From Chloroflexota bacterium (GTDB lineage Bacteria > Chloroflexota > UBA11872), in assembly GCA_026707585.1 (NCBI GenBank), contig JAPOWQ010000074.1:1-64000 (forward strand): a DNA stretch of 64,000 nt, read 5' to 3'. The position numbers and the translations under genes were made by a program. The notes under the pieces were generated by a model. That model saw only the letters and a list, made by a program, of their open reading frames with translations, did not search any database and was not told where the DNA came from. Shown here one piece after another: positions 9,881 to 64,000 of the stretch. How positions within the stretch are numbered: the first letter of the stretch is position 1; every line of letters begins with the position of its first letter.

Positions 9881-10586
9881 TCATTGATGTCCTTGCCGAG
9901 TTGGGCCTAGTTGGTCTCGGTATGTCAACCCCGCAGTCTCGTGCGGGGCAAATTCTTCCGATCCGTAACGCGTTCCGATGTGCGCGCCCCGTGCCCCTCC
10001 AAGCACGTGGCTGTTCGTTACGACGTATCCGTCCGCCGTCATCACGAACGCGCTGCCGATGCGTCCTTCAGCCGTGCGGATAAGTCGAACGGCGTTCCCT
10101 GCCCGCTGCACCAGCTCAGTGATCGACAGCGCAGTGGAAGGCGTCTGCGTAGCCCGTGGTGCCCGCGTCGGTGTTGGTGTCGGAACGCGCGTGAAGGTCG
10201 GCGCTGGAGTCGGTGTCGGTGTCCGGAGCGGCGTTGACGTGCGAGCACCCGTTGGGGTCGGGGATAGAACCGGCGGGCGCGTCGTGGCATGGGTGGACAT
10301 CACGGTCGGCGTCGGTGCGCGCTCTGAACGTTGGGCTGAGCGTTGGTTGTGCGGTCAGCATTGCGGCCGGTGCCGGGCTTGGCGTTGGAGTCGAGCCAAG
10401 CGCCGGCATCTGGCTGATCAACTGTGTCGCAAGCTGCGGCCGAGCCATCGCGAAAACCACGGCAGCGATGCCAATAGCCGCCAGCAGCACAAGTGTCGTT
10501 AGATCGATCGCCGCCAAAACTCTATTCAGAAGCGCGTCCTTACCCCGCCTGAGAGTGTCGGCGCCGACCGCAGCCGCAAATGGCAA
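9881..10586 (-). pseudogene. Membrane-anchored trypsin-like (HtrA-type) protease, truncated and frameshifted
   Basis: From 10586 the frame gives a short cytoplasmic head, one membrane helix (LTTLVLLAAIGIAAVVFAMA, residues ~29-48) and the start of a Pro/Thr/Ser linker (GSTPTPSPAPAAML). A frameshift at about 10303-10320 moves the linker into the next frame (TPTPTRAPRATQTPS). The protease domain then begins: ELVQRAGNAVRLIRTAEGRI, GSAFVMTADGYVVTNSHVLG. Its catalytic His is intact in TNSHVL. After GTRYGSEEFA the sequence degenerates and ends at 9881, so the Asp and Ser of the triad are missing. This is the N-terminal remnant of an envelope serine protease; it cannot be active. Confidence 0.7.
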
Positions 10587-11034
10587 GCCATTGTCTTAAA
10601 GGATCCGCCGTTCTTCTCACATCGGCTCTGCATAACTACGGCAATGGACTCCTCAGTAGTTGAGTTGATCGAGGGCCTGACTCATCCACGACGCCCAGCA
10701 CCCCACGCAGGCATCCGAAAGTTCCCAACCAGCTTGGCGCTTTCAGGCTCGAAGGCCTCGCGCGACTCAGCACGTGCCACCTTTCGGGCTTGCCCTGAAG
10801 GTCATGGCTCTGGAGGAACCGGCCGTCGATGTAATCGGCTGCTCGGATATGGCGCATTTCACTAGACCAAGAAGCGGCTGTCTCTGGGCAGCCTTGCGGA
10901 CCTGCCTCGAAGCGCGCAAAGCCCCTGGGTTGGAATCTTGGCCGAACGCTGCGGAAGACTGTCCGCATCGCCATGTGATTCCATCGGGTCACGTTGCGGC
11001 TGGGCGGGGTTACCCTATCCGTTAGAGTGCCAAT
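10587..11034. other. No definite gene
   Basis: A minus-strand stretch around 10700-10850 (ADYIDGRFLQSHDLQGKPE) has a protein-like look but no start, no family and no continuation. The DNA just left of the direct repeat has ATCCGTTAGAG, matched by ATCCGTTAAAA before the second copy at 16.42 kb, so the repeated region may begin slightly earlier than annotated. Confidence 0.35.
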
Positions 11035-11193
11035 ACCACCGACTGGACGGTGGTTGGAAACCGCATTAGTCGGATCGGGGCTACCAGTCTGCGGACGTTC
11101 CGGCGTCGGCGGGTGGCAAGCCGAATCGAGGCGCCGTGCTGGTGACCAGCGGTGGGCCAGGCTCAATTGAGGGGCTTGAGTTCTGCCTGGCCC
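11035..11193 (+). repeat. Direct repeat copy A: left boundary of the 5.3 kb cassette
   Basis: The segment 11048-11176 matches 16453-16581 base for base in length (129 nt) with about a dozen mismatches. It is preceded in both copies by a hairpin whose stem is kept while the loop varies (here ACCACCG 11035-11041 / CGGTGGT 11048-11054). Further conserved pieces include GCTGGTGACCAGC, a perfect 5-bp hairpin. Similarity ends at TTGAGGGGCT (11167-11176), which equals a tRNA-Leu(GAG) anticodon loop. In this copy only, the 3' side forms a long hairpin, GGGCCAGG (11154-11161) with CCTGGCCC (11186-11193). It could be an element end or a structured RNA. Confidence 0.75.
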
Positions 11194-11512
11194 GCATCAC
11201 TCTCGAGAAGGATCTAGAACACCACAGCTAACCGTCGGCCGACGGCAACTGTTCAACCTTGAGGACTGGTCGCAGCGTCACGTCTGGAGAACTGAAACCA
11301 ACCTCAAGTTCGCGCGCATCTTCGGTGGCCGGCCGGAATGCCGAGGAGTGCCGACGTTGGGTCACAGACACAGCCTTCCTTACGACGTCGCCAAAGGCGA
11401 CGGCATTTTGGTCGGAGATCTCCGCTGCTCATCGAACGGCCGCGTGTCGCACGCGTAGCTAGACTGCACGCCAACCGAGGGCAGGCAGCCGCCCCGCCAA
11501 GGCTGACAGATC
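11194..11512. other. Leader region of the RCC1 gene, no gene seen
   Basis: About 320 nt without a supportable reading frame. The promoter of the following gene must lie here or in the repeat, but no convincing -35/-10 pair stands out. AAGG about 10 nt before 11513 is a weak ribosome-binding site. Confidence 0.4.
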
Positions 11513-14128
11513 ATGCGCTGTGTGCGGGCGATCATGGTTGTCGCAATACTGGTCGTTGCGGCGCAAGCGGCAACCACTCCAGCCCTGGCCCAGTGGCCGA
11601 CAAGCTGCGTCAGGCTCAACGACATTGTTGAGCTCCATCTTGGCAACCATGAAAACGTCGGTATCTACCAGCGTGTCTTCGGGGTTCACGCCGAAGCGGC
11701 ATGCCAAGCCGACCACAGGGCAGACGTGCGGGCGACATTCGCCTGGGCATTCAATGACGCAGCGCGCTCGTCCGAAGAGGGCATTGCATCCACCGCCTGG
11801 CCGTCCAATTGTGTGGAGCTCAACGACATCGTCGAAGGCCACCTTGGCAATCAGGGCAACGTCGGCATCTATCAGCGCACCCTCGGTTTCGGGGCCGAGG
11901 GCACCTGCCGTCGGGATCATCGCGAGGACGTACGCGATGCGTTCGCCTGGGCCTTCGCCAGTTCTTCGTCGGACGATCTCGAGCGGGCCGCGGCATCGCC
12001 GTCGCCGTCTGCTGCCGGGTGGACATCGGTAAGCGCCGGCGAGCACCACGCGTGTGCCGTGACAGCAAACGGTGGCATCGTCTGCTGGGGACGGCAAGCG
12101 CGGGCCCAACCCACTCCGCCACCTAGCAAGTTCGACTCAATCAGTGTTGGCGTCTACCACTCGTGCGGCGTGCTGACAGACGGTACGGTTTCCTGCTGGG
12201 GATCGAACTCGTCAGGCCAAGCTGAACCGCCCGACGGCACGTTCACGACGGTGAGCGTTGGCGCCTATCACACATGCGGCCTATTATCCGAAGGATACGT
12301 CGCCTGCTGGGGTGGAAATCCATATACGGGGGAAGCCCGACCACCGGGCAGCCTGGCATGGGTCCGAGATGGCCAATCGAAAGCCCGGTTTCTCGCCATC
12401 AGCGCTGGCGGCAAGCGAACCTGTGGGATTCAAGCCGATGGCGCCGCATCCTGTTGGGGAGAATACGCTCTTACGCCTCCGGAGGGCACCTTCCGGTCAG
12501 TCAGCATCAGTCATCGTGGCTTCTACGCCTGTGGCGTGCGGACGGACGACACCCTGACTTGCTGGGGCGGCCGAATCAAGACACCGCCAGGCACCTTTCG
12601 CTCAGTCAGCACCGGCGACTACCACGCCTGCGGGGTGCGAACGAATGGCACGATCACCTGCTGGGGGAACGACGACAAGCCGGACTCGAATGACGCATTA
12701 CTCGTCCCTCCTGGCACGTTTCAGTCGGTCAGTGTCGGTCGCGGATTTACCTGTGGAGTGCGGCCGGACGGAGGCCTCGTCTGCTGGGGAAACAACGCGC
12801 ACTGGCAGTCGGCACCACCTCCGGACGCGTTCCAGTCCGTCGGTGCCGGCTTTGCCCATACATGCGGAATACGAACCGACGGACGTGTTGCCTGCTGGGG
12901 ACGGAACTATGCCGGCCAGGCGGCGCCTCCGCCAGGCGTGTTCCGCGACCTCAGTGTCGGCGATTATCACACCTGCGGACTACGAAACGACGGTGTCCCT
13001 TTCTGCTGGGGCGAAAACGGCTATGGCCAAGCCGACCCACCACGAGAAACCTTCAAGGCCATCAGCGCGAGTCAAGCCCACACCTGCGCGATACGGTCTG
13101 ACGACACGGTTGCCTGTTGGGGCACGAACGTAGCCCGAAACGGGACGTACATCGGTCAGGCCGATCCGCCGGCGGGCACTTTCCAATCAGTGAGCGCCGG
13201 CCTTGCGCACACTTGCGGCCTTCGGACCGACGGCTCCGTCACGTGCTGGGGCCTGGACAATTTCGGCCAACTCCAACCGCCATCGGGAGTCTTTTGGTCC
13301 ATAAGCGCCGGTCAAGCCCACACGTGCGGGACTCGCGCCGATGGCCGCGTGTCCTGCTGGGGACGCAATGCCTTCGGTCAAGCCGATCCACCCGGGGGAG
13401 TCTTCCGGTCCGTCACCGCCGGAGCCAATCACACGTGCGGGATCAAAGCCGACAGTGCCGCCGTCTGCTGGGGCGACCGATACTTTGGCCAGGCCTTCCC
13501 GCCCAGCGATAGGTTTCAGTCCGTCAGCGCTGGCGCCGCCCACAGCTGTGGCATCCGCACCGATGGGACGGTTGCCTGCTGGGGAGAGAATCTCGACGGA
13601 CGGTCGACGCCGCCGTTCTTCCCTCGCGAAGTCCAAGAGTCTGGCAAACCACCACCAGACACGGCAGCTTCAGAAGGGACTCGCTGGTCACCTGGGCCAC
13701 CCGTCCCTATCGGAACCCCCGTTAACTCGCTCCGAAACGGCTGGGAGATCACGGTGCTTTCGGTCTATTTCAGCACTGGTGTTCCGAGCAACCTTGATCC
13801 CGATCAATGGGTGACCCTCATCGCTCGGCTCCGCGTCACCGGAAACAACGGAGCCGAGGGACAGTTCGCACCGTATTCGACGTTTCGCTTCCATGCACGA
13901 CGAATCGATGACCAAGGGCGCTCGCGAACAAGCGTCTATCGAATCGTAGGGTGTAGTGGTCCTGACGCGCTTGGACAGCCCACGATTTCCGCTGGCGAGT
14001 CGGTCGAAGGAACAATCTGCGTGGCGATTCTCAGCCGCGATGCACACAGGGTTGTGATGCATCTATACAACGCGCATCACTCTGGGACCGCCTCCGATGC
14101 GCACCCAGGCTGGCGGCTCTCCTACTAA
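11513..14128 (+). CDS. Secreted RCC1-type double beta-propeller protein
   Basis: Encodes 871 residues. A signal peptide (AIMVVAILVVAAQAATTPAL, cleavage after ALA near residue 26) leads to two copies of a ~50-residue Cys-containing module starting WPTSCVRLNDIVELHLG (~27) and WPSNCVELNDIVEGHLG (~96). Residues ~168-700 hold 14 repeats of the form FxSVSAGxxHTCGIRTDGxVxCWG, so two seven-bladed propellers would fit. Each repeat has two Cys, suggesting disulphides outside the cytoplasm. The last ~140 residues (PVNSLRNGWEITVLSVYF...) resemble DUF4352-like beta domains of envelope proteins. RCC1 folds are binding scaffolds; the ligand is unknown. It is the largest gene of the cassette between the two direct repeats and faces the nuclease-like operon convergently. 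Confidence 0.85.
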   Translation: MRCVRAIMVVAILVVAAQAATTPALAQWPTSCVRLNDIVELHLGNHENVGIYQRVFGVHAEAACQADHRADVRATFAWAFNDAARSSEEGIASTAWPSNCVELNDIVEGHLGNQGNVGIYQRTLGFGAEGTCRRDHREDVRDAFAWAFASSSSDDLERAAASPSPSAAGWTSVSAGEHHACAVTANGGIVCWGRQARAQPTPPPSKFDSISVGVYHSCGVLTDGTVSCWGSNSSGQAEPPDGTFTTVSVGAYHTCGLLSEGYVACWGGNPYTGEARPPGSLAWVRDGQSKARFLAISAGGKRTCGIQADGAASCWGEYALTPPEGTFRSVSISHRGFYACGVRTDDTLTCWGGRIKTPPGTFRSVSTGDYHACGVRTNGTITCWGNDDKPDSNDALLVPPGTFQSVSVGRGFTCGVRPDGGLVCWGNNAHWQSAPPPDAFQSVGAGFAHTCGIRTDGRVACWGRNYAGQAAPPPGVFRDLSVGDYHTCGLRNDGVPFCWGENGYGQADPPRETFKAISASQAHTCAIRSDDTVACWGTNVARNGTYIGQADPPAGTFQSVSAGLAHTCGLRTDGSVTCWGLDNFGQLQPPSGVFWSISAGQAHTCGTRADGRVSCWGRNAFGQADPPGGVFRSVTAGANHTCGIKADSAAVCWGDRYFGQAFPPSDRFQSVSAGAAHSCGIRTDGTVACWGENLDGRSTPPFFPREVQESGKPPPDTAASEGTRWSPGPPVPIGTPVNSLRNGWEITVLSVYFSTGVPSNLDPDQWVTLIARLRVTGNNGAEGQFAPYSTFRFHARRIDDQGRSRTSVYRIVGCSGPDALGQPTISAGESVEGTICVAILSRDAHRVVMHLYNAHHSGTASDAHPGWRLSY

Positions 14129-14238
14129 ACAGCCGGGCACCGGCGGCCGAGGAATCGCACCCAGGCGAGTACCGGCAGACGCCGAGCCGTACGCTGACTC
14201 GCGCGGGGCTCCGATCAGATGCCTTCGCGAGCTCCCGT

Positions 14239-15159
14239 TCACTTCACCTGGCGTAGTCGGCGGTCCGTGTGCTCCCAGAGTTCGACATCACCGACGCCGC
14301 GTGGCAGGTGCCTGTTAACGATCGGGAGCACGCCGCCATAGCGCCGCTTCACCTCTGGACTTCGGACGTCGCGACCAAAGCCAACGACGGCCCGCATTCC
14401 GTCACCGAGCCGGCGAACGCGTGGCATGAGACCCGCATCGACACGCGCATCAATCAGCGCCTGCACACCGTCGCGTACGTCATCGAATGCGTCATGCCAG
14501 ATCCAGACGTAGTGCAGAAGCTGGAGCGGCGCGTAATACAGGTCGGCGGATGACTTGGACGCGTCCTTGAGTTCGATAAGCACCAGACGCCCGCGCGAGT
14601 CAATCGCCAGTTGGTCGAGCTCTGTGCCACCAGCCGGTGGCGCCGCCCAACGGCTGCCGTGCGCGACGGCGGTTAGGGCCTTGTGCGCCGATCTGACCTT
14701 CGGTAGCGCCGCAGCCTCCACCTGATGGGCCAGCACGACCTCGCGGTCGATTGGCAGCCAGGGCTTCTGGACCCGTGACCATTGCATCTGGATCGCCCCT
14801 TCGGCCTTGGTCCACCGTGGGCCGACCTTCACACCTCGCACGTAGCTGGTCAGGGCCGAGCCGAGGCCTGTCTCGCCAGCACGCCATGTTCTGAAGAGAC
14901 CCTGCGCACACGCCTGTGTGGTGTAGGTCCGATGCGCCGTCAGCTTCACATCTCCGCCCCACAGTGCCTGGGCCGTGATGAGCCGGGTCATCCCGCAGTA
15001 GACGTGCATCTCGTCATTGCGCCGGAAGTGCACGTCCAGCCCGACACCTCCGGTGTTCTCGTCGCCCAGCGACACCAAGGGCGCAAGCAAGCCCGTAGGC
15101 CGCAGGAGTCGCAGCAATTGCGCCGAGGGCGCGCGGTCATACGGTGCTGGAGTCGTCAT
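14239..15159 (-). CDS. PD-(D/E)xK nuclease-like protein, second gene of a two-gene operon
   Basis: Encodes 306 residues from an ATG at 15159. Residues 180-198 read ELDQLAIDSRGRLVLIELK: Glu180/Asp182, a turn, then Glu196-Leu-Lys198 on the second strand, which is the D...ExK core of the PD-(D/E)xK nuclease fold. It is followed by an aromatic helix (YYAPLQLLHYVWIWHDAF). The N-terminal half is an unfamiliar beta-rich region with WRAGETGLGSALTSYV. The gene starts 10 nt after the stop of 15170-16129, so the two are surely co-transcribed; both have ExK cores, so they may form a heteromeric nuclease or a restriction-like pair. No methyltransferase is nearby. Substrate unknown. Confidence 0.7.
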   Translation of the reverse strand: MTTPAPYDRAPSAQLLRLLRPTGLLAPLVSLGDENTGGVGLDVHFRRNDEMHVYCGMTRLITAQALWGGDVKLTAHRTYTTQACAQGLFRTWRAGETGLGSALTSYVRGVKVGPRWTKAEGAIQMQWSRVQKPWLPIDREVVLAHQVEAAALPKVRSAHKALTAVAHGSRWAAPPAGGTELDQLAIDSRGRLVLIELKDASKSSADLYYAPLQLLHYVWIWHDAFDDVRDGVQALIDARVDAGLMPRVRRLGDGMRAVVGFGRDVRSPEVKRRYGGVLPIVNRHLPRGVGDVELWEHTDRRLRQVK

Positions 15160-15169
15160 CGGTCTCCCC

Positions 15170-16129
15170 TTACAGCTGGTAGCGCTGGCGCATGTACGTC
15201 GCCCATCCCGTCAGGCCCTCCGCCTCACCAATGCGAACGACCTCCGACGCCGAGAGCACCGGCGCATGCGACGGCTCCGGCAACAGGCGGTGCCACGCCG
15301 CCCATTGCCTCGCAATGTTGAGATTCGCATCGTGGGTGCAGAGGCCGAACCACGCGCTACGTACCCTGCCGTCCTGTTCGAGACCCCGCGCGATGGCGAG
15401 GTTGCGCATGGGCTGCTGCATGTCGTAGGCGAAAGGACACGGCCCATCGAGATCGGCGTTCGGAAAGGCGTTGTGCACGCTCCCGTGGCTGCCGGCGAAG
15501 ATCTCCCAATAGCGGCGATCACGCCGCTGCCGTACCGGCCGGCGGAGATAACAGGCGTTCGGATCGCGCATGAAGAGCCGAGCCGATCGGCAAACGTCCG
15601 TCCGCCGATTCCCCCGGCTGGTGCGTCCGCCACAGGCCGTGAAGTCCCGCTCGCTCAGCTTGACTTCCAGCAGGACGGCAATCCGGCGTCGAAATCGCAT
15701 TCGACCCCACAGGACCACGTCGCTGGCCGTCGCCGGTTCATCACCGACGGGCCGATCGCCCGCAATCTCCCCGAGCAGCCCGCCGGGCGGCACCCACTCG
15801 AACTGCACCCGATCGATCCTCAGCCGACGTCCAACCAGGTCGCTCACGGCCTCGGACAAGAGCGCCCGCGGCCCGTCGCGAAACGGCAAGAACAGGTTCA
15901 AGGCGAATGCCTGTGAACTGCGCAGGTGCGCCACCTGCCGGTGAAGGCGCACGTGATCGGCGCGGATCGCCGCCGCGGCGAGATCGCGATATGCCGAGTA
16001 GATCCCGTCGGTCCAGTGGTTCCAATAGCGCGATCCGGAGCCGTCCACCTGGACTCGCCACGCTGTTAAATGTGCCTGGAGGCTCGCGTCGAACGGAGGT
16101 CGACCACGAGGTGGGCCAGCACTGGTCAC
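15170..16129 (-). CDS. PD-(D/E)xK nuclease-like protein with a Cys-containing insert, first gene of the operon
   Basis: Encodes 319 residues from an ATG at 16129. The nuclease core is TASDVVLW (Asp137) followed by IAVLLEVKLSERDF (Glu155-x-Lys157), a D-x17-ExK spacing usual for the fold. FTACGG and two further Cys (VCRSAR, ACYLRR) follow at once, like the putative restriction endonucleases of the PGN_0703 type; that subfamily assignment is tentative. The C-terminal part contains LARQWAAWHRLL-like helices and ends MRQRYQL. Upstream, in another frame (around 16130-16270), SRTEVIQALGKLRVRLTNEG looks protein-like, so the true start could be further upstream with an indel. It lies directly left of direct repeat copy B. 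Confidence 0.7.
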   Translation of the reverse strand: MTSAGPPRGRPPFDASLQAHLTAWRVQVDGSGSRYWNHWTDGIYSAYRDLAAAAIRADHVRLHRQVAHLRSSQAFALNLFLPFRDGPRALLSEAVSDLVGRRLRIDRVQFEWVPPGGLLGEIAGDRPVGDEPATASDVVLWGRMRFRRRIAVLLEVKLSERDFTACGGRTSRGNRRTDVCRSARLFMRDPNACYLRRPVRQRRDRRYWEIFAGSHGSVHNAFPNADLDGPCPFAYDMQQPMRNLAIARGLEQDGRVRSAWFGLCTHDANLNIARQWAAWHRLLPEPSHAPVLSASEVVRIGEAEGLTGWATYMRQRYQL

Positions 16130-16441
16130 GCTTCCGAGCGAACTTCCTTCTGCATGGTGCCGTCCACAGCCTAGCGACTACTGCCCGCCCTTCCGCACCA
16201 TCCGCTCCTTCATTTGTCAACCGGACTCGCAGCTTGCCGAGCGCTTGTATGACTTCCGTACGACTCACGTAGCCCAGGGAATCCTCACGCTTCCTGCGAA
16301 TGCGATCGCCGAGCACCGGCGCCGCTCCTCGCGCCTCGGCGCTGACTCCTGTACAACGGCGGGGACTCCTGGTCGTACCGTGCCGTTCCGGCGCGATACC
16401 GAGACTAGGCATGTCCACGCCAATCCGTTAAAATTCAGTTG
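16130..16441. other. Upstream region of the nuclease operon
   Basis: About 310 nt. Minus-strand text SRTEVIQALGKLRVRLTNEG (around 16190-16270) may be a lost N-terminal extension or a short gene, but no full frame supports it. The operon's promoter should lie here; none stands out. Confidence 0.35.
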
Positions 16442-16581
16442 CCACCGATTATCGGTGGTTGGAAACCGCACTTGGCGAATCGGGGCTACTAGCCTGCGGA
16501 CGTTCCGGCGTCGGCGGGCGGCAAGCCGAATCGAGACGCAATGCTGGTGACCAGCGGTGGGCCAGGCTCAATTGAGGGGCT
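16442..16581 (+). repeat. Direct repeat copy B: right boundary of the cassette, fused to a tRNA-Leu half
   Basis: Same sequence and orientation as 11035-11176. The hairpin here is CCACCGA (16442-16448) / TCGGTGG (16452-16458), followed by the 129-nt conserved block 16453-16581. The block ends in AATTGAGGGGCT, the last ten bases of which coincide with the anticodon loop and the start of the following stem of the tRNA-Leu half at 16572-16626. Mobile elements that use tRNA genes leave exactly such a junction at their distal end, with the displaced tRNA 3' half outside it. Confidence 0.75.
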
Positions 16582-16626
16582 AGTGGCCTTCGGGCTGTGC
16601 GGGTTCGAGTCCCGCCCTCGGCACCA
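16572..16626 (+). tRNA. 3' half of tRNA-Leu(GAG), displaced fragment or attachment site
   Basis: TTGAGGG is the anticodon loop (GAG). A long variable arm with a TTCG loop follows (GTGGCCTTCGGGCTGT), then a perfect T arm GCGGG-TTCGAGT-CCCGC (16599-16615), acceptor strand CCTCGGC (16616-16622), discriminator A and encoded CCA (16624-16626). The long variable arm and discriminator A are class II, leucine features. The 5' half is absent: upstream is repeat B, which cannot pair with the anticodon stem or acceptor strand. It is therefore not a functional tRNA. Confidence 0.8.
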
Positions 16627-17514: not shown

Positions 17515-20500
17515 CTATTCCTCGGGTCCCCGAACCATCGTCTCTCGCCGGCTGGAGAGCATGATGCCGTCGGCCGTGCAGATGGCTCCCGGATCGTCGC
17601 AGTCCGTGGTGACGGGGAGCACGATGGTCACGTCGGCGCCGGAGTCCGGTCGGACAGTGATTCGCCAGCGGATGTTGCTGGGCTTCTCCAGCCGCTGAGC
17701 CTTGGTCACCGTGCCGCCCGTGACGTCGAGTCCATGGTCGCGGAGGCTTCGGAAGCTCAGCTTCACTTCCTGATTGAAGCGAATCTCAAAGGTGAAGGTT
17801 GACTCTCCGTCATGGGTTTCCGGCACGCTTTCGAAGGCAACCGTCAGCGGCTCGGAAGGTGCGGCCGCGACCTCGGCCGTCGCCGCGCTCGTGAGCGACT
17901 CGCTGTGCCCGGCGTCGTCGGTGAAGGTCACCCGCACTCGGATCGCCTTGCCCGCGTCGCCGTCTTGCAGTTCGTAGGTCGCGCCGGTGGCGCCATCGAT
18001 GTCGGCGTCACCGCGAATCCACTGGTAACTGAACGTCGCGTTGGCCAGGCCGTCCGCATCCGCGATGCCCGACGTGTCCGCCGTTAGCGTTTGGCCGACC
18101 TCAGTCGTGCCGCTGACGGTCGGCGCGCCCGTAGCTGTGCGGTTGGGCCTAGCCGCGACCTCGGCCGTCGCCGCGCTCGTGAGCGACTCGCTGTGCCCGG
18201 CGTCGTCGGTGAAGGTCACCCGCACTCGGATCGCCTTGCCCGCGTCGCCGTCTTGCAGTTCGTAGGTCGCGCCGGTGGCGCCATCGATGTCGGCGTCACC
18301 GCGAATCCACTGGTAACTGAACGTCGCGTTGGCCAGGCCGTCCGCATCCGCGATGCCCGACGTGTCCGCCGTCAGCGTTTGGCCGATTTCAGTCGTGCCG
18401 CTAATCGTGGGGGCGCCCGTCGCCGGTCGGTTCGGCCGGGCCGCGACCTCGGCGGTCGCCGCGCTGGTGAGCGACTCGGCGTGGCCGGCGTCGTCGGTGA
18501 ACGTGACCCGCACCTTGATCGTGGCGCCCGCGTCGGCATCCGCTAGCTCGTAGGTCGCGCGGGTCGCGCCGTCGATGTCCGCGTCACCGCGGATCCACTG
18601 GAAGCTGAACGTCGCGTTGGCCAGGCCGTCGGCGTCCGTGATGCCCGACGTGTCCGCCGTCAGCGTTTGGCCGACCTGGGCAGTGCCGGTGATCGTCGGG
18701 GCGCCCGTGGCGGACCGGTTGGGCCGAGCCGCGACCTCGGCCGTCGCCGCGCTGGTGAGCGACTCCGAGTGGCCGGCGTCGTCCGCAAACGTCACCCGCA
18801 CCGTGATCGTGGCGCCCGCGTCGGCGTCCGCTAGCACGTAGGTCGCGCCGGTGGCGCCCTCGATGTCCGCGTCGCCGAGAATCCACTGATAGCTGAACGT
18901 CGCGTTGGTCAGGCCGTCCGCATCCGCGATGCCCGTCGTGTCCACCGACAGCGTCTGTCCCACCTCGGCTGTGCCCGTGATTTGCGGCACACCGGAAGCG
19001 GGCGAGTTGGTCGCCGGTGCCGTCGGCGTCGCCTCGGCCCGGTCGGATGCCTCACTCACGCCGGACTTGCCGATGGCCTTGACGCGGTAGACGTGCCGGA
19101 CATCGACGGTCGTGGCGGTGTCCGTGTAGGTCGTGGCGGTGCTGCCGGTGTCTTCGACGTAGATCTGCAATGCCGTCTCACCCTCGCTGGGGCGCCGCCG
19201 CAGAATCCGATAGCCGGTGACGGACGAATCGACCGGGGCATCCCAACTGAGGGCTATGGAGCCATCCGCGTTGACTGATGCCGTGAGGTTCCGCGGCGCT
19301 TGCGGTGGGCTGGCCGGCGGCTCTACGGACTTACCGACGCTGGGCTCCTCGGACTTCCCGACGCTCGTCGTGCTCTTCGACTGTTTGCCGGAGCCCTGGC
19401 CCTGGCGGTTAGGGCTCACCGACCGGCCCTCGCTTGGCGCGCCCTCTCCGGTGATGGTTTGCTCGAGGCTGTTGGTTAGCCGCCGGTCGCCGCTGGCGCA
19501 CGGGGCGCCTCGGGCGTCGCATGCCCGGTCCGCGGGAAGCGTGATCAAGATGTCGTCGTAGGAGTCGGGCACCAGCACGACCTCCCACAGCCTCCCGTCG
19601 CGGTTCACCCACCACGCGCTCGTCACGTCGGCGCCGGTGACCGTGAGCAGGAATGCGGACGCGGGGCCGGCGTCGATCCGGATCGGCTCACTGAAGCGAA
19701 TGTGGAACCGCAGTTCGTCATCCGAACCCGTGTGAGTCTCGGGCACTTGCTCGAATTGGGCCGTGAGCGGCTGGAGTCCCGCAGGGTCGGTGAGGTTCTC
19801 GGACTCTGAACCGGGCTCGGAGAAGTCACACGAGGCGGCGTAGTTGCCGTCGGTGTCGCGAATGGCCGGTTCGCCCGCGGTCGCCGGCATCAGGTAGCGC
19901 ATTTCGACCTCGTCGGCGGCGGTAACGGGTGAGGCCAGGAAGAGCGTGAAGCTACGCCCGGAGATTGACACGTGGATCACGTCCCGCAAGCCGCCGTTCA
20001 CGATCACCGCGAAGCGGCTGACATCGGGCACGGAGGATTCGTCCAGGTCCCGGTCATAGGTCAGCGTCAGCTCCGCACCGCTCACGGTGTTGCCGACAAG
20101 CTGGGGTCCGGCACTCTGCGGCATTCCGAAGTGCTCGCCGGAGGGAGCGCTGTCCCCAACGGCGTTGATCGCCATGACTCGCACGGTGTAGACGGAGCCG
20201 TTGGTCAGCCCCCCGATGAGGTGGTGGATCTGTGTGGCTCCGGGAGTCCACTCCTCGACAATGGCTTCGGACACCGCGTTGGCATTGGTCCAGCTTTCCG
20301 CGCCCGGCTTCCACTGGAGTCGATAGCCGGTGATCGCGGAGTTGCCGTCGCTGCGCGGTTCATTCCAGCTGGCGACAAGCTGATTGTCGAACGGCGCGAC
20401 CCGGAGATACCGCGGTTCGGCGGGCACAGTCGACGTTGGTACGGGCTGATCCTCGAGCGGCGTCTCCTCGATCCAAATCTGGTGCGTCGTCGACGGCATC

Positions 20501-49918: not shown

Positions 49919-51969
49919 GCTGGTTCACTCTCCGAACCCTGGCCGCTAGCGGCAGTTCATGTCCTACTCGGGCTCGACGCGGTGAGAGCATAGACATGAC
50001 CATATTGTGGGACAAGTTATATCGCAACCTAACACCACCGGGTACCAACGGTGCCATCATCATGCTGACACCTGATCTATACCCCCCACAATGCCATAGG
50101 AACCCTAACTGGGTTCAGTGATACTCTCACCGAGGGTACCAAGAGACCAATACAGTTTGTCCGTTGAGTCTCGATGGTATTGAGAAACCATGCATGCACA
50201 AGAAGTATATCGCAGAGCTAGCAAACCTGTCTGCAAGCAAGTAGCACTCAATGCCTCTCGTCCCTTCGACGAGCCACCCACATGCCTACTCGACCTCACC
50301 TGAACATAGTCGAGCTGTAGCACCCAGCTTGTAACGTTTATAACGTTCGCAGCGCACTCTGGGATGGGTCGTACGCGTGGCGAGAGTCTCGGGTCGATTG
50401 CCCGGTCGAGTCACGCTTGGGCAGACGGTGCCAGCAGCCCAGTGCTGTCAACAGACGCTCGGGCCGCACGCCGTGCAGGGTTTGCGGGACTCGCCGGCAC
50501 GCAAGTGGCTCCGCTAAAGGCAGTGGTCCGCGGCCGAAGCCGATAGCCAAGAGTCCTTCAATGTCGTGGGAGTCCCATTCATCCGGTCCCAGCGAACTGC
50601 TCAGTACTCCTGGGAGCAACGTCCGCCGGTTGCCGGCGGCGCGTCCACAGGCGGTACAGGCGTTGCTGGAGCGGGCGTCCCGGAGATCAACTCCCACTGC
50701 AGCGTCTCGGGAGGTTTTCGAAGACTCTCCAATCGCCCACGCCGGTCGCTTCATTCCGACGTAGATCAATGCCCACACCACAAGCGATTGCTTGGACTTG
50801 GGGCCAACTGGAGCGTTGACCTCGGCCGAATACGCACGTCCGGAATCGACGCTCTTCTTTCGCAACTCCAAGCCGACTACCGAGCCCACTCCAAAGTTGG
50901 AAGCAATTGGCCGGCGACTGTTGCGCTTAGTCGCGGAGAACCACGCTGTCCGTCCATTGCGGCCAGTGACGATCCGGCGGATGAGGTTCAGGGCTTGAGC
51001 GCAAGTCCCGACCACCGAGTGACTGCGGCTGGAATCGGTCGGTGCAAGGCGTCCAGCTCAGACGACGCAACACGTGAGTATTGCGGAATCCAGGACTCCC
51101 CGGCTCATCCAAGTCTGCGAGACTCGCAGCGAACGGTAAACGTCGCGGCTCTCTGGCCGAGCACGTCTACGAGGAATGTGCACTAACCGGGCCAAGCGAT
51201 GAGGTCAGCTGATCGCCGGACCCACCAATCTGAATCGACTGACATCATTTCGCCCGGCCACAAGCTCGACTTGCGCGCTTGGACAGAGGACCTGATCCCC
51301 GCACGGTGAGGTGCGCCGCCGGCTGCCGATCCGAAACGGCGTTGACCCACCGGCCGGCGCGCCGCCGAAACAGGCCTGGGGCCCAAGGCTGTCGAGTTGG
51401 AGGTCGTGGTCGGCCGCAGCGAGACGCGGCACATGAAGCTGTTTTCCACGTCCAACCGACCGTATTGGGCGCCGGCGCTCAGGTACCTGAGCGCCCAGTT
51501 GCCACCGGCAAGTCCGCGACACGATCGCCCGGAGTCGAGGTCCTCGCGACGAAACTCCGCCTCCACGGCGGCCTTGAGAACCGGGCGCTCGTCATGGCTG
51601 CTGTGGACGTATGCGCCGCACGCATCCGCCGCGGTCCGTCGCTTTGCCACGCGAAGGCGCATCCCCCTGGCAACGGCCACTCACGCTGATTCGGAACTTG
51701 GTGCAATCCCCGCCGCTCTCGTCGGTGTATACGTCAACACTGAGCCACTCCTTGAACTCGCACCGTGCGCCGGCGCCAAACGCCGCCCGATCGGCAGCCA
51801 AGCGGGCCAACTGGTCGTGGCGTCACCGCCGAGGGCAAGACCTGAGTTAGACACGAGTAGCACGTATCGTCCTCCCCGGCTGCTCCGCATCCCGAGTTAC
51901 GGAATCTCCCGGTCTCGATGTCATCCTGCTGATCGCCCGGTACGGACATGTAGGCGTCCAAGTCCTGCG
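49919..51969. other. Two kilobases without a supportable gene
   Basis: Open frames on both strands overlap and lack recognisable motifs. Some minus-strand stretches look faintly protein-like (e.g. EFKEWLSVDVYTDESGGDC near 51740; KSKQSLVVWALIYVGMKRP near 50780) but have no coherent frame. The segment 49980-50330 is less GC-rich and contains short hairpins such as AACCC/GGGTT (50101-50115). With the decayed recombinase on its right, this is probably degenerating mobile-element DNA. Confidence 0.45.
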
Positions 51970-51994
51970 CCGCCGACCGCTAAGAGGTCGGCGG
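51970..51994 (-). terminator. 9-bp perfect hairpin at the end of the recombinase remnant
   Basis: CCGCCGACC (51970-51978) pairs with GGTCGGCGG (51986-51994) across a 7-nt loop and overlaps the recombinase stop codon at 51980-51982. No T-run follows; it may be a terminator remnant or part of an attachment site. Confidence 0.45.
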
Positions 51995-52553
51995 AGCGTG
52001 GGCGTAGAGATTCCCAGTCGTTGTGTTTGTGCGATGGCCCAGGCGCGCGCTAATCACGGGAAGTGCGTGCCCATGCGCAATCAGCAGCGAGACGTCGGGC
52101 GCAAATCGTGGAGCCGTATCGATGATGATAGACGAGCCCGCTCGAATGCTGCATTGACCCACCTATGTACCCCGCTGACGTGCAGCGGCCGACCAGCAGC
52201 GTCGGCAAAATCGAGGCACCGGCAGGACGCAGCGTCCGCAGCGCGACGCTGCTGGGAAACCTGTCATATCCTCTGTTGTTACAGGGCTTCCAGGCGGAGC
52301 ACGACTAAGTCCACGCGTCGCTCGTGCTGGGGCGTTGTCGGTCCAAAACGTGCCCGCGGCCAGGCAAGTGCGTCAAGCCCCGGCGCGCGATGACGCTATC
52401 CCAGTCAAATTCGACATCCGCCCGGCGCAGGCCCCGGAGTTCGCCGCGACACAGTCCGCCGAGCGCCGCAAGCACCAGCAGCGCATCGACCGGCGGCGAC
52501 TGTTTCGTCTCAAAGAGCCGCCGGAATGCCGGGCGGTTCAGCTCCGTAATTCC
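51980..52553 (-). pseudogene. Tyrosine recombinase (phage-type integrase), catalytic domain remnant with frameshifts
   Basis: Reading down from 52553: LNRPAFRRLFETKQSP, LLVLAALGGLCRGELRGLRR (catalytic Arg of the RGEL box), ADVEFDWDSVIARRGLTHLP. A frameshift/stop follows near 52310, with RRVDLVVLRLEAL in another frame. Then VNAAFERARL, HDLR (the HxxR box), a further shift, and SLLIAHGHALPVISARLGHR (LGH) and NLYAH (nucleophile Tyr) to the stop at 51980. All four catalytic elements are traceable across three frames, so this is a recently inactivated gene rather than a chance match. The N-terminal arm-binding and core-binding regions are missing. It points away from the tRNA-Leu fragment 130 nt to its right, the usual integrase position beside an attachment site. 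Confidence 0.8.
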
Positions 52554-52684
52554 ACGCTGCGGCCTACGTGGCTATTCGCGGGTTGCTGCTAGGCTTGGGA
52601 CGACTCGACGGTCGGCGGTGCTCAGTTGGGTCCGCCGAACTTATTAGTCGATCACGCTGGGGGCAATCGCCCGGGCCGGCAGAC

Positions 52685-52738
52685 TTGAGGGGTTAGCGGC
52701 CTTCGGGCTGCGCAGAATCGAGTCCCTCTCTCGGCACT
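52685..52738 (+). tRNA. Degenerate 3' half of tRNA-Leu(GAG), second attachment-site relic
   Basis: TTGAGGGG, TTAGCGGCCTTCGGGCTGC and TCGAGTCCC...CTCGGCA match the fragment at 16572-16626 at most positions. The T-arm no longer pairs (GCAGA against CCCTC) and the CCA end is CTC. GGCAGAC just upstream (52676-52684) resembles a leucine tRNA D-loop, so part of the 5' half may survive in shortened form. Not a functional tRNA. Confidence 0.65.
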
Positions 52739-53002
52739 CGATCCACCGCATTTTGCGCCACATGCTGGACGGCGGTCATCGAGTCGGTATCTGAAGGCGC
52801 CCGTGTGGCTGAAGTGCGCTGGCAGCGGGGCTCTGTCGCCTGACTTGGCGCCCGTCAACAGTCGCGGGCGTTCGGACATTAAGATATGAGGTGCGTGCAT
52901 TGATTCCTAGGCGGACACTGAGCGCGACGTGAACCGACGTCAAAGCCACGCGCTACCAGTGAGGAGACATGCTGTTATGGGCTTCAGACCGGCGAGAAGA
53001 AC

Positions 53003-56000
53003 ATGACCGAGCGAGTTCAAGACCCCGCCTCGACTGCTGAGAGCGTCGTTCCCGCGGCGAATGGCAGCCAACCACCTCCTCAACCCGCGGAGCCCATCGC
53101 GATCGTCGGCATGGCCTGCCGATTCCCTGGGGCGTCGAGCGTGGCCGAATTCTGGCGCCTGTTGGAAGCCGGGGAGAACGCGGTCAGCGAGGGAGATCCT
53201 GGCTCCGGCGTCGGACGAATGGGCGAGCTTTTCCCGGACGATCGTGTCCGGAGTGAGGCCTGCAGATTCGGCGCCTTCGTGGAGGACCTGGACCAATTCG
53301 ACGCGGAGTTCTTCCGGATTTCCCCGGTCGAGGCGCAACTGCTGGATCCGCAGCAGCGCATGATGCTGGAGACGACCTGGCTGGCGCTTGAAGACGCGGG
53401 GATCAACCCCGATCGGCTCAAGGGCAGTCGAACCGGCGTCTACACCGGGATCAGCAACGACGAATACCGAATGCTGGTCGTGGACTCGGTGAGGCCAACC
53501 GAAGCGGCTGGCTGCCTCTACGCACTGAGCGGCACCAACCTGAATGGCACGAGCGGACGGGTCTCTTTCGTCCTTGGTCTCATGGGCCCCGCAAAGGCCG
53601 TCGACGCCGCCTGCGCGTCGTCCCTCGTGTCGGTGCACGACGCCGTATCAGACCTCCAGTACGGGAAGGCCGACCTTGCCATTGCCGCCGGTGTGCAAGC
53701 GATATTGAACGGACGCATCTACGAGCTCCGGGCCGATTCGATGATGTTGTCCCCAGACGGGCAGTGCAAGACCTTTGACGCCTCTGCCAACGGCTACGTC
53801 CGCGGCGAAGGATGCGGGGTCGTCGTTCTCAAACGGCTGAGCGAGGCCGAAGCCGACGGCGATCGGATCTGGGCGGTCATCCGCGGCTCGGCGGTGAACC
53901 ACGGCGGGGCGAGCACGGGTCTGACCGTTCCGCATACGCCCGCGCTGGAACAGGTCATTGAAGCAGCACTGTCGCAAGCCGGTGTCGCCGCCTCGGAAGT
54001 CGACTACCTGGAGGCGCACGGAACCGGAACGGCGGTCGGCGATCCCATCGAAATCGATGCCGTGGCCAACGTCTACGGCCGCGAACGCCCGGCCGACCAT
54101 CCGCTACTGATAGGTTCTGTAAAGACCAACATCGGGCATCTGGAGTCCGCCGCAGGCGTCGCCGGGCTCATTAAGGCAGCAATGGTCGTCAATCGCGGAG
54201 TGATACCGAAGCACCTGCACTTCCACAATCCCAACCCGGCGCTTGACTGGGATCGCCTCCCGATCCAGATCACCTCGGAAATGTCGGACTGGCCGGACGG
54301 CTATCGAAGGCCACGTTTGGCCGGCGTGAACTCGTTCGGCATCTCCGGGACGAACGCCCACATCCTGGTTGAGGAGTACCCCGGGCTTAACGGCGCGCCA
54401 GACCAAGAGTCGCCGATGGCGGGCGTCCCGCAGACGGTGGCCGTATCGACGCCCCGTCAGGCGCATCCCGACGAGCAGATCGATCAGCGACGGGATCGCT
54501 TCCTGCCGCTGTCGGGCAAGTCAGATCAGGCCCTCCGCGCACTTGCGCAGCGCTACCTGACATGGCTCGACGATCGGACCGCGACACTCGCTACTGAGGA
54601 TGCCGGCTCGAATCCGCTTCTGTCGGATATGTCCTGGACCGCCGGCGTCGGTCGAAGCCACTTCGATCATCGGTCTGGCGTCGTGTTTAGCGACACCAGG
54701 TCGTTGCGGGAGCAACTCCGATCCGTCGCCGAGGCCGGTCCAGTTGGACGGCCTCGGACAGTGACCAGGGTGGCCTTCGCCTACACGGGGCAGGGCAGCC
54801 AGTGGATCGGCATGGGCAAGACCCTGTATGAGACCGAGCCGGTAGTGCGATCGGTGCTGGACCGCTGCGAGGCCGTATTCCGAAAAGAGCGTGGGGCCTC
54901 GTTGCTGGACGTGATGTTCGGCCGGCCGGGAGCAACCGGCGAACTGGGCGACACCGCGTGGGAGCAGCCGGCCCTCTATGCGCTGGAATGCGCCCTGACC
55001 GCCCTCTGGTCCAGCGTCGGCATCCAACCCGACGTGGTCATGGGGCACAGCGTCGGCGAGCTGGCAGCGGCGCAGGCGGCTGGCGTCTTCAGCCTGGAAG
55101 ACGGAATGCGGTTCGCGGCGGCCCGAGGCGCCCTGCTGTCGGCAACACCACGCGGCGCCATGGCCGCGATCTTCGCGCCTCCGGCACTCGTCGCGTCAGC
55201 GGTTGCGGAGGCCAACGCGGCCTCCGATGACGTCGGTTTGAGCGTCTCGGCCGACAACGGCGCCCACCAGGTAGTGAGTGGTACCGCGGCCGACATCGAG
55301 ACCATTTCAACGCGCTTTGAATCACAGGGCATCCGGGTACGACGGCTGAACACAACCCGCGCATTTCACAGCGCCTTGGTCGAGCCAGCCCTCGTCAAGC
55401 TGGAAGCTTTCCTTCGCGCTCTGGCATTTGAGCCGCCGACCCTGACCCTCGTCAGCAACTTGACCGGCCAGAAGGTGGAGCCGGGCACCACGCTTGATAG
55501 CGCCTATTGGCGGCGCCACGCTCGACAGCCCGTGGCGTTCGCGGGCGGCGTCAGAACGCTGGCCGACCTGGGCGTTGACCTGGCAATTGAGATTGGTCCG
55601 CACGCGGTGCTTGGGCCCATGACTACGCTGGCCTGGCCCGATCCGGCGTCTGGGCGGGACGCGCCCGAGGCCCCAGGCGTGCTCGCCAGTCTGCGGCGAC
55701 CGCCACGGGATGCCTCGACTCCGGAAGCCGAGAGCAGCTTCGTTGACGCCGTCGCGGAAGCCTATGAGGTGGGGTTGGAAATTTCATTCGAAGGACTCTT
55801 TGCTGGCGAGACTCGTCGTCGGATCTCGCTTCCGAGCTATCCATTCCAACGCCGCCGCCATTGGCTCGAGCCGTCCAGGCAACGGGGGCCAACCGCCGGT
55901 CACCCCTTGCTCGGCGTCCGTCACGAATCCGCTCGCGGCGAAGTCACGTTCGAGACGGAAGTAATGCCGTCCGATCCCGAGTGGCTGAACGACCACCGGG

Positions 56001-59000
56001 TTTTCAATCGCCTCGTGGCTCCCGGCGCCCTCTACGCGGCCATGGCGGCCGCCGCCTCGCAGGCCGAAGGCAGCGGCGCGCTTGTCGTGGAAGACATGCA
56101 ACTGCACAGCGCCATGGTCTTTTCCGACCAGGGTTCCGAGGACGGATCAGGCGACGAAGGCCGCACGATGCAGGTCGTTCTCGACCCTGCCGAGCAATCG
56201 TCGTCGCGGGAAATCCAGATCTACAGCCAGGGCAGTGACGAGGAGTGGACGCTGCACGTGGAGGGCCGAGTGCCGGCGGTCGCCCCTTTGCCCGAAGGCG
56301 TCGATCGGGTCGATCTCGAAGAGCTGAAGTCGCGTCTTTCGCCGGCCGATGTGCCGGGGTATTACCAGGCCAAGACAAGCACCGGGATCGATCTGGGTCC
56401 GTTTTTCCGCACCTTGGAGAACGCCTGGTCTGGTCCGGGTGAGGCCCTGGCTGAAGTCCGCCTGCCCGATTCCGCTGGCCGAAACGACCTGGACGTTCAT
56501 CCGCTCGTGCTTGACGGCTGCTTCCAGGTGGTGGGCCTGGCTCGCAACATGTCCGGCGCACCCGGCGAGGCAACCTACCTGCCGTTCGGCTGGGACCGGC
56601 TGTGGCTCACGCGCCGCCTGCCAGATCGAGTCTTTTGCCACGTTTCCATGGACGAGGCTTCCCAGGAGTCAGAGTCGAGTGAGCCGCCGGAAGTCCTCAG
56701 CGGCGAACTTCGCATCTACGATCCCAACGGCGTGCTCCTCGGTGGCCTGACCGGTTACACGGTCAAGCGGGCCACGCGGGCCGCCCTGCTCTCGGCGGTC
56801 GAGGGCATTGATGATCTGCTGTATGAAGTGGCGTGGCGCGAACGCGAACTGCCACCCGGAATCGAGGCCGCAGACTTCTTCCCAGGACCGACCGAAATTG
56901 CCGCCAGGTCGCAGCTGTTCACCGGCTACCTGACCGACGCCGGAGTCGACCCGCAACGTCGAAACGCGCTGCTGGCCGACCTGGAGCGATGGTCGCGCTC
57001 ACGCGCGCTTGCCACGTTGGAGGACCTGGGGTGGCAGCGGATCGTCGGCGAAACCGTGGATCCCCAAGCCCTGCGGACTCAGCTCGACGTTCTTCCGGAG
57101 CACCAACGCGTATTCCGCCGAATGTTCGAAATGCTCGCCAGGTCAGGTGTGGTGGAGGAGACGAACGACGGATTCACGGTACTCGTGGGACCGGATGATC
57201 CGCTGCCGGACCGCATGCCAGGCGATCTCGAAGAGTTCGCTGACGGGATGATGGACCGGTACCCGGACGGCCAGACCGAAATCGGGCTCTTCCGACGGTC
57301 TGGCCGCGCGCTAGCCGAGGTCCTCCGCGGTAACGCCGATCCGCTGACACTGCTCTTCAGCAGCGGCGAACCAACCGCGGCCGATCTCTACTTGAAAGCG
57401 CCCGTTGCGCGCGCCGCAAACCGAATGCTGGCGGACGCGGTCCAGCCCCTGGTCGCCGCGCTGCCCGACGGACGGCGGCTTCGAGTGCTTGAAGTCGGAG
57501 CCGGTACGGGGTCCGCAACCGCATCCGTGCTTCCCGAGCTTCCCGAAGGTCGGTTCGACTACACCTACACCGACATTTCCGCGGGCTTCTTCGCTGAGGC
57601 CGAGGCGCGCTTCGGCGATGGCGACGGATGCATTCAGTACCGTCCGCTGGACATCGAGCGAGACCCCATCGCCCAGGGCTTCGATCGCCACGGCTACGAC
57701 CTACTCATTGCCTCCAACGTGCTTCACGCCACGCGCTACCTGGAGGACACGCTGGGACACTGCCGAGATCTGCTTGCGCCGTCCGGGCAACTGATCGCGC
57801 TTGAGAACCTCAGCGGCGTCGGATGGATGGACCTGACCTTCGGGCAGCTGGACGGCTGGTGGCGGTTTGCCGACGACTACCGCCCGCACCACGCGCTGGC
57901 CGGTCCACTGGTCTGGCGCCAGGCGCTCGGAGACGCGGGTTTTGAGGCGGTCGAAGTCCTCGGGGTTGACGAATCTGACGCGACCCAGACCCTGGACAAG
58001 GGCGTAATCGTGGCGCAGGGTCCGGCGCAGGTGGCGGAGCCTCCGGGCGTCTGGGTGCTTACAGGCGACCACGCCGGCCTGGCGGAGGAACTCGCGGCGG
58101 AGCTGTCCGCGCGCAATCAAACGGTGGTTCTGGCGAACGCCGAAACGCCGGACGCGGACAAACCTGCGATAGCCGGCCCCGCCATTCTCCGGCCCGCGCT
58201 CGACACCGAAAGTCGTGACGAGTGGCAGTCGCTGATCGAGAGTCTGCCTCGGGACATCCCCTTCAACGGCGTCGTACACCTTCAAGCGCTCGATGGCCAC
58301 GGCGCTCAGGCAACCACCGTGGAAATAGGAGCGGACGTTCGCCACGCCGGCGCCAGCGCCCTGGCCCTGGTGCAAGGCGTGGCCGACGCTGACGTCCTTC
58401 CCGCCAACGGCCTTTGGTTCGTAACCCGTGGAGCGCAGATTCTGGAGCGGGAGCGCATCGGAGAGATCTCCGGCGCCGTCCTTTGGGGACTGGGCAAGGT
58501 CGTCGCCCTTGAGGCCGCCCAGCTGCAGCCGCGCATGATCGACCTGGAACCCAATGCCACCCCCCTGCTGGCTGACCTCTCAAACGAACTGATGTATCCC
58601 GACCAGGAAAACCACATTGCCTACCGCTCAGGGCGCCGCCTTGGAGCACGCCTGGTACGGCCCGGGGCCGCGGCCCGGCGGCTAACGCTGCCGGACGATT
58701 CATCGTGGGTTCTCGCGCCGGACCGCAGCGGCGTGTTCGATCAACCGGAGGTCAAGCAGCTTCCTGGACGCACCCTTGAGTCGAAGGAAGTTCGCGTCAC
58801 CGTCCAGGCAGCCGGCCTCAACTTCTGGGATGTCTTCCGATCGCTCGGGTTTATCGAGGAGGGCGATCTCGGCCGAGAAATGTGCGGTCGCGTTCTCGAT
58901 GTCGGCTCAGAGGTCTCGACCGTCAACGTCGGCGACCACGTGGTTGGCCTGGGCTTTGGAGCCTTCGGCCCGGAGATGGTCACCCGCGAGGAACTGGTGG

Positions 59001-63346: not shown

Positions 63347-63663
63347 GCCTCGAAGCACCAGGCGCATTGGGCTCATCATGCGCACCGCGGGGATTCGTAC
63401 TGCCGGCGTAGGGCATCGTCGTCGCCGAGACCCTCCCCTGCGACGGCCGCAGACCCGGCCGGGTAACTCGCTTCACGGGCCGCACCCGTTCCTGCCCGCC
63501 ACCTTCTCGCCTTGACGCTATTGATCGGTGCCAGGAGGCGTCGCGGCCTCGAGACGAACGCTGCAATCCACAGCGCGTGTTTTCTCGCAGATGACGACGC
63601 GCCCCCGCTGCTACACTTGCCGATTCTCCGGCCCTAAGGCCCCTGCAGGATGGAATTGCCCTC
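63347..63663. other. Gap between PKS and ACP genes
   Basis: About 320 nt with no gene. It contains a 12-bp palindrome ACCCGGCCGGGT (63453-63464), a TTGACG at 63513-63518, and AGGATGGA about 15 nt before the ACP start. The length suggests the ACP may have its own promoter, but no paired -35/-10 is convincing. No DNA coding for the missing AT2 parts is seen here. Confidence 0.45.
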
Positions 63664-63909
63664 ATGGCCTCGACTGAAGACCGCCTCAGAACTCTCGTTG
63701 CCGAAAACCTTGAAGTGGACGGTCAGCCCGTGAACGTGCCGGCCGACTTGAACGTCAGCCTCACCGACGCCGGTGTTCCCTCCATGGACTTCGTTGCGTT
63801 CGCGAAGGTGATCGTGCGGGAGTTTGACGTCCCGCTGACCCCGGACGAATGCGCGGACTTCAGCACCCTGAAGGACTTGACCGCGTACATCGACTCGCAA
63901 GCCGCCTAG
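63664..63909 (+). CDS. Free-standing acyl carrier protein
   Basis: Encodes 81 residues, normal ACP length. The pattern is a four-helix ACP: helix 1 EDRLRTLVAENLEV, then DLNVSLTDAGVPSMDFVAFA, where Ser40 in PSMD is the predicted phosphopantetheine attachment site. The usual DSL triplet is PSM here, as in some specialised discrete ACPs. Helix 2/3 VIVREFDVPLTPDECADFST and helix 4 LKDLTAYIDSQAA follow. It lies 317 nt downstream of the PKS on the same strand and would supply the carrier that the terminal KS2 lacks, or load or offload the chain. No phosphopantetheinyl transferase is in the window. Confidence 0.88.
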   Translation: MASTEDRLRTLVAENLEVDGQPVNVPADLNVSLTDAGVPSMDFVAFAKVIVREFDVPLTPDECADFSTLKDLTAYIDSQAA

Positions 63910-63919
63910 CCACATAATC

Positions 63920-63994
63920 CTGCGAGGGCCTTCGACTCTCGCTAATGTCGAGCCGGCGAAGGAGCGCGAACGAACACCATGTGCTCCCTCGCAG
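63920..63994. repeat. 9-bp inverted repeat downstream of the ACP gene
   Basis: CTGCGAGGG (63920-63928) is perfectly complementary to CCCTCGCAG (63986-63994), 57 nt apart. It could close a long stem-loop past the ACP stop; no T-run is visible before the window ends. Confidence 0.45.
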
Positions 63995-64000
63995 CCGGGT

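Follow-up and report, generated by a model that had tools for sequence, protein, structure and literature searches.

Contig C63 of genome G000, from an uncultured Chloroflexota family, begins with a 64-kb stretch (hereafter the window) in which two directly repeated blocks bracket a 5.3-kb segment encoding a secreted RCC1-repeat protein and a pair of nuclease-like proteins. It is very probable that this arrangement arose by tandem accretion of genomic islands at a single tRNA-Leu(GAG) gene, in which the 129-nucleotide (nt) repeated block is the P arm of the attachment site (attP) of islands carrying a tyrosine integrase designated IntA, islands with a second integrase, IntB, enter the same target, and the 5.3-kb segment is a remnant resembling a cis-mobilizable element (CIME).

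The direct repeats at 11048-11176 and 16453-16581 are 92% identical with a start-to-start distance of 5405 nt, in agreement with the initial annotation, which had described repeats of equal length. Gapped alignment carries the homology upstream to 11014 and 16420, so as to give a block of about 160 nt that includes a CCACCG-CGGTGG hairpin, and the two window copies are 87% identical over 156 columns. This block (block A) has seven copies, spread over two genera and four genomes (G000 with three, G003 with two, G005 and G010 with one each), and because these are distributed among genomes of the family the repeat in the window is not a chance match. The identity of the left and right window blocks to each other is close to their identity with the copies in contig C73 of the same genome and in G010 (83–86%), and they thus look like the ends of separate islands. 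A recent duplication in place is ruled out, as the window copies are about 13% different, much like copies elsewhere.

Both window blocks end at their 3′ side with TTGAGGGGCT, which is the anticodon loop of tRNA-Leu(GAG) plus three nucleotides, and only the right block runs on past it, for 44 nt more of the tRNA, to 16625/16626. The complete core at 16572-16625 (plus strand), which begins with the 7-nt anticodon loop (TTGAGGG) and ends in CACC, is identical at 54 of 54 positions to the intact tRNA-Leu(GAG) gene of the same genome (G000:C44:7954-8040, minus strand), and this match upholds the earlier statement that both blocks end in the anticodon loop and the start of the stem with the right one entering the tRNA 3′ half. 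ARAGORN calls no tRNA gene in the window, as would be expected of half a gene. An older, decayed core with nine mismatches to the intact tRNA is present at 52685-52738 (plus strand). The suggestion that the repeats are the scar of integration into a tRNA gene stands for the right junction and for the anticodon loop as the crossover region; it does not stand for the 129-nt block itself, since a single integration repeats the tRNA half, and the block is an adjoining part of the island.

The intact tRNA on C44 is followed directly by a complete gene for a XerD-like tyrosine integrase, IntA (C44:6623-7717, minus strand; PF00589, E 6e-36), with the catalytic residues R-K-H-R-H-Y recognised by eye in the alignment. 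The IntA family matches XerD/XerC models across nearly its full length, and no separate arm-binding domain is therefore seen. The same order of core and then integrase is found in G001, G003, G004, G005, G010:C3 and G000:C59. IntB, which is 36–41% identical to IntA, is encoded on the opposite strand, at the far end of its islands (G016:C101 and G001:C31; also G005:C26). There is no PF00589 profile match in C63, consistent with the absence of a recombinase from the 5.3-kb segment that had been reported; the slot occupied by IntB in relatives contains, in the window, a tyrosine integrase pseudogene broken by frameshifts and stop codons (51932-52589, minus strand), which is matched in three frames by the integrase of G010:C78 (tblastn, E 3e-47).

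Comparison of the copies identifies the block of about 160 nt as the predicted P arm of attP in islands that target tRNA-Leu(GAG). Block A lies before a tRNA core in C73, G010, G003 and G005, with IntA following in G005; it ends islands with different cargo, other cargo between the repeats being something that the initial annotation had proposed to look for, and the complete tRNA cores that follow it all begin at the anticodon loop. In G003, G001, G004 and G000:C56 the core comes after an unlike arm, type B. The clearest feature that the A and B arms have in common is GGYYACTAGCYT, or a near match to it, which in nearly all P arms begins precisely 88 nt ahead of the core. In the right block of the window (type A arm, 16420-16571, plus strand, at the right end of an IntA-type island) this is GGCTACTAGCCT at 16484-16495 (plus strand). 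Exact matches to the GGYYACTAGCYT motif number five in the 3.92-Mb genome (two in C44 and one each in C59, C63:16484 and C73), all five in island arms, while a reversed control pattern has 11 matches. Motifs of the same type are present in the P′ arms beside IntA, at +63/78, +93/108 and +119/120, and a similar sequence is found in the arms of IntB islands in the opposite orientation, at -93 and +55/56. The motif corresponds to GGCTAGTGGCC, a tRNA segment just past the anticodon loop, read in reverse complement, with no more than two mismatches and mostly none or one.

These accessory motifs may be integrase binding sites. We tentatively propose that the Xer-like integrases assemble attP through extra copies of the tRNA half-site (GGCYACTAGCC, near the reverse complement of GGCTAGTGGCC) at fixed distances from the core (-88, +93/108 and +119 for IntA; -93 and +55, in the opposite orientation, for IntB), a suggestion that is somewhat less likely than not. 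If it is correct, both integrase families and both of the unlike P-arm types would converge on this layout, and the accessory sites of the islands would be several imitations of the gene that they target. The conserved hairpins of the block, together with a TTAAAAT box upstream, could instead mark a gene for a structured non-coding RNA or an intron in tRNA-Leu, and we regard this as highly improbable, as there is no Rfam match, compensatory change is seen in just 2 of 36 consensus pairs, no copy adjoins the tRNA 5′ half, and the -88 motif is shared with the unlike type B arm and recurs in P′ arms. A group I intron, a T-box or another RNA in the tRNA was ruled out for the lack of an Rfam match and the near absence of compensatory changes.

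As expected of a tRNA-borne island, one end has an intact tRNA (on C44) and the other a like-oriented 3′ fragment (16572-16625); the two ends are on separate contigs, and their orientation comes from synteny. Comparison with sister genomes places C44 to the left of C63, because the genes left of the tRNA are found on C44 and those to its right at C63 68-72 kb, including a flotillin gene at C63:69522. Empty sites with an intact tRNA-Leu, which the initial annotation had proposed to look for in relatives, were found: in G010, G014, G011 and G012 the tRNA-Leu(GAG) and flotillin genes lie within 1.6 kb of each other with no insert. In G015, G008 and G013 this distance is 16.8 kb, and in G015 the site can be placed to the exact base, as the first base past the tRNA aligns to window position 52739 (blastn, 88% identity over 11.26 kb); the window to the left of 52739 is thus inserted DNA relative to G015. 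The portion to the right (52739-64000, plus strand) is an older insertion relative to G010, lying directly after the intact tRNA-Leu in G015. It contains a single 3447-aa open reading frame (ORF) at 53003-63346 for a modular polyketide synthase (PKS; KS, AT, DH, MT, ER, KR and ACP domains and a second KS-AT), which is kept right after the tRNA in G015, with G008 and G013 having the same 16.8-kb spacing. G016 is intermediate: the tRNA is followed by an island whose left end is ACTCGAAGT, and a different contig continues with a core-bearing island end and then the PKS region. The sites thereby form a graded series: empty, with 16.8 kb, with one IntB island more in G016, and with IntA and IntB islands in G000. 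From these alignments we take the window to comprise parts of at least two stacked islands above the older PKS insertion.

The second of the stacked islands (16626-52684, plus strand) has IntB-type ends (ACTCGAAGT at the left and ..GGCAGAC at the right). Domain searches show that its cargo includes giant Calx-beta proteins, a sensor kinase, a DegV protein and a two-component pair. The DegV gene (46858) has no counterpart in any of the 12 other genomes of the genus, and the relatives of the sensor kinase beside it are at most 48% identical; both distributions fit island cargo. Two minus-strand ORFs at 17515-43960, of 4113 and 4721 aa, overlap by 62 nt in different frames, with Calx-beta domains in the second, and may represent one giant surface protein gene split by a frameshift or an assembly error. 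There are also 288-nt tandem repeats at 17836-18999.

Other arrays of these junctions were noted. In G003 a longer one-strand array extends over 76 kb (C10:328760-404963; L041-L045) and includes a type B arm, core and integrase, a block A stub, block A with a core, and a type B arm with a core; the intact tRNA-Leu(GAG) core was not found in the G003 assembly. G000 itself has more decayed island junctions, and one further IntA gene, at C73:7025-7244, C56:2799 and C59:28990-30155, and these contigs possibly belong between C44 and C63.

We propose that at least two related island families, IntA and IntB, each with a Xer-like tyrosine integrase, would enter tRNA-Leu(GAG) by recombination at the 7-bp anticodon loop. 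Each island would supply its own tRNA 3′ half, such that the intact gene stays at the left and the former 3′ half is displaced to the right, and repeated insertion would generate stacked islands. The 129-nt block would be the P arm of the IntA-type attP and would have an accessory site for the integrase at a distance of 88 bp from the core. Together, the right block and 16572-16625 would constitute attR of the latest IntA-type island, with attL and the integrase on C44, so that C44 and C63 would bound one island. The left block would form the right boundary of a further IntA-type island. The island next to that one would have lost both the tRNA half and the end with the integrase, and the 5.3-kb segment with the RCC1 and nuclease-like genes would be what survives, on the right side, of an inner IntA-type island from which the left end (tRNA half, P′ arm and integrase) has been lost. 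Either a deletion within a tandem junction or integrase action at a poor secondary site would account for that loss.

The left block comprises a type A arm (11014-11166, plus strand, aligned with the six other copies) and 10 nt from the start of the core (TTGAGGGGCT, 11167-11176, plus strand), after which the other 44 nt are missing and unrelated sequence follows, and its -88 accessory site has decayed to GGCTACCAGTCT, with two mismatches. When 11177-16571 is compared with the structure of a CIME, the right attachment site is complete and the left consists of the P arm and overlap only. Because the left block is such a relic, the 5.3-kb segment is probably a truncated island or CIME-like remnant and not a self-contained cassette. 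A block in G003 similarly ends after TTGAGGG, and it derives from a normal junction, since the preceding approximately 0.9 kb are 82–85% identical to the stretch before the complete G005 junction.

Several points weigh against the accretion account. The left core is missing, and given the similar stop after TTGAGGG in G003 an integrase event at a secondary site is no less plausible than a plain deletion; the IntB-type island of the window holds the pseudogene of a third integrase type and not IntB; and C44 and C63 are separate contigs, so that the length of the island and the join at its left end are deduced from their placement. The left block could reflect insertion of an IntA-type island, or an integrase-made deletion, at a secondary site sharing just the 7–10 bp overlap. 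We consider this the less likely course. In its favour, two breaks fall right past the overlap (TTGAGGGGCT here and TTGAGGG in G003:C10:376186), and SGI1 has secondary attachment sites as well as tandem arrays (PMC2297512); on the other side, no relative was found with the unrecombined 11177-11512 sequence (there is no convincing match to an unrecombined left junction across 19 genomes), and a plain deletion inside a tandem junction fits too.

The initial annotation had regarded the 5.3 kb as one mobile unit between its own attachment repeats, which would have to be mobilised in trans unless it was the residue of a larger element. A functional CIME mobilised in trans, acting through the two block-core sites, could draw on the P arm and 7-nt anticodon loop present on both sides, on the intact IntA elsewhere in the genome, and on the precedent of Dehalococcoides islands without an integrase between attachment repeats (PMC3146451). 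We think it improbable, because the left site has lost most of its core and its accessory site is damaged, the blocks did not arise by recent duplication and look like separate arrivals, a normal island has a P′ arm at its left and not a second P arm, the integrase end is on C44, and the nuclease-like gene pair occurs elsewhere without the blocks. We therefore favor tandem accretion with a truncated inner island.

The only credible genes in the 5.3-kb segment are those for the RCC1 protein and the nuclease-like pair, with neither an integrase nor a transfer gene among them, although no systematic search for transfer genes was made. The RCC1-repeat protein (871 aa, secreted; 11513-14128, plus strand; PF13540, E 7e-97) has host-type paralogues of 45–47% identity outside the island at C63 ~76-84 kb. 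The first gene of the pair (15170-16129, minus strand) encodes a 319-aa member of the PD-(D/E)XK nuclease family (REase-ARP/PDDEXK_13; PF22558, E 4e-18, 66.4 bits against a cut-off of 27; PF20796, E 2e-16), in which D137, E155 and K157 of the D..ExK motif are invariant. The second (14239-15159, minus strand) encodes a 306-aa protein with a D-x(n)-E-x-K motif whose D182, E196 and K198 are likewise invariant; it has no match to a family profile, and none in a sequence search of solved structures, and although the top structures in a Foldseek search include the nucleases PaqCI, SduA and Shedu, the best E value of 0.03 is not significant. The gene pair is conserved in G014, G002, G001 and G018 with differing neighbours and no block A; in G002 and G001 it shares a contig with tRNA-Leu(GAG) and lies downstream of that gene, and in G014 it is 8 kb from a decayed core. 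The earlier view that the RCC1 gene and the nuclease pair travel as one unit is thus not sustained, since the RCC1 gene is outside the conserved module, and the nuclease-like pair occurs in these four relatives without the repeats, an outcome that the initial annotation had listed as refuting its view.

Relatives of the first gene are found in Chloroflexota metagenome-assembled genomes and in two from Pseudomonadales (59–63% identity), which suggests that a defence-like gene may have moved between phyla. The Pseudomonadales relatives (L093, 8134-11849; L092, 8758-15385) adjoin genes for an Eco57I-type DNA methyltransferase or Schlafen/AlbA proteins, and these neighbours hint at a putative defence role. 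The second gene at L093 was considered as a homologue of the 306-aa protein, and profile comparison gave no support. PADLOC identified no convincing defence system, with one match at E 0.007. To the left of the left block, 9881-10586 (minus strand) resembles the start of a trypsin-like protease (PF13365, E 5e-4), apparently over two frames, and is possibly a pseudogene in an IntA-type island.

The kind of structure described here is known, and this example of it is unusually well documented; the new details are the family in which it occurs, the sharing of a single site between two groups of integrases, and accessory sites that resemble the target. Islands of the Islander set that enter at the anticodon loop (PMC4383910) have the same intact tRNA, 3′ half in the same orientation, integrase beside the tRNA, anticodon-loop crossover and tandem arrays, and the Islander definition describes the present case except that the two ends are on different contigs; the differences are the two integrase families at one site and the resemblance of the extra attP sites to copies of the tRNA half-site. 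Arrays of at least three islands are uncommon in that set, with four listed among 3919 islands (PMC4383910), and use of the 7-bp anticodon loop as the overlap is the textbook arrangement (PMC8371274). Within the phylum, the nearest relative in kind is the Dehalococcoides ssrA array (PMC3146451), where there are also tandem islands after one RNA gene, direct repeats of its 3′ end, and members without integration genes; those islands use a serine recombinase, tmRNA and a 20-bp repeat, whereas here there are Xer-like tyrosine integrases, tRNA-Leu(GAG) and a 54-nt half. The integrase-less Dehalococcoides members have been discussed as CIMEs (PMC3146451). Formation of CIMEs by tandem accretion and deletion (PMC3146451) likewise leaves, within a tandem array, cargo that is flanked by attachment-type sites and has no integrase, but the left site here has only the P arm and 10 nt of core and is of doubtful function. 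SGI1 (PMC2297512) also forms tandem arrays at one attB and uses a second site that partly matches attB; its arrays are copies of one island, whereas the stacked islands here differ.

For an uncultured Chloroflexota family, these genomes record step by step how islands accumulated at a single tRNA gene, from an empty site to an older insertion, to one island more, and to two, with one junction placed to the exact base. They also show that a truncated island can pass for a mobile cassette. With integrases and attachment sites named, the candidate target-mimicking accessory sites are open to in vitro work.

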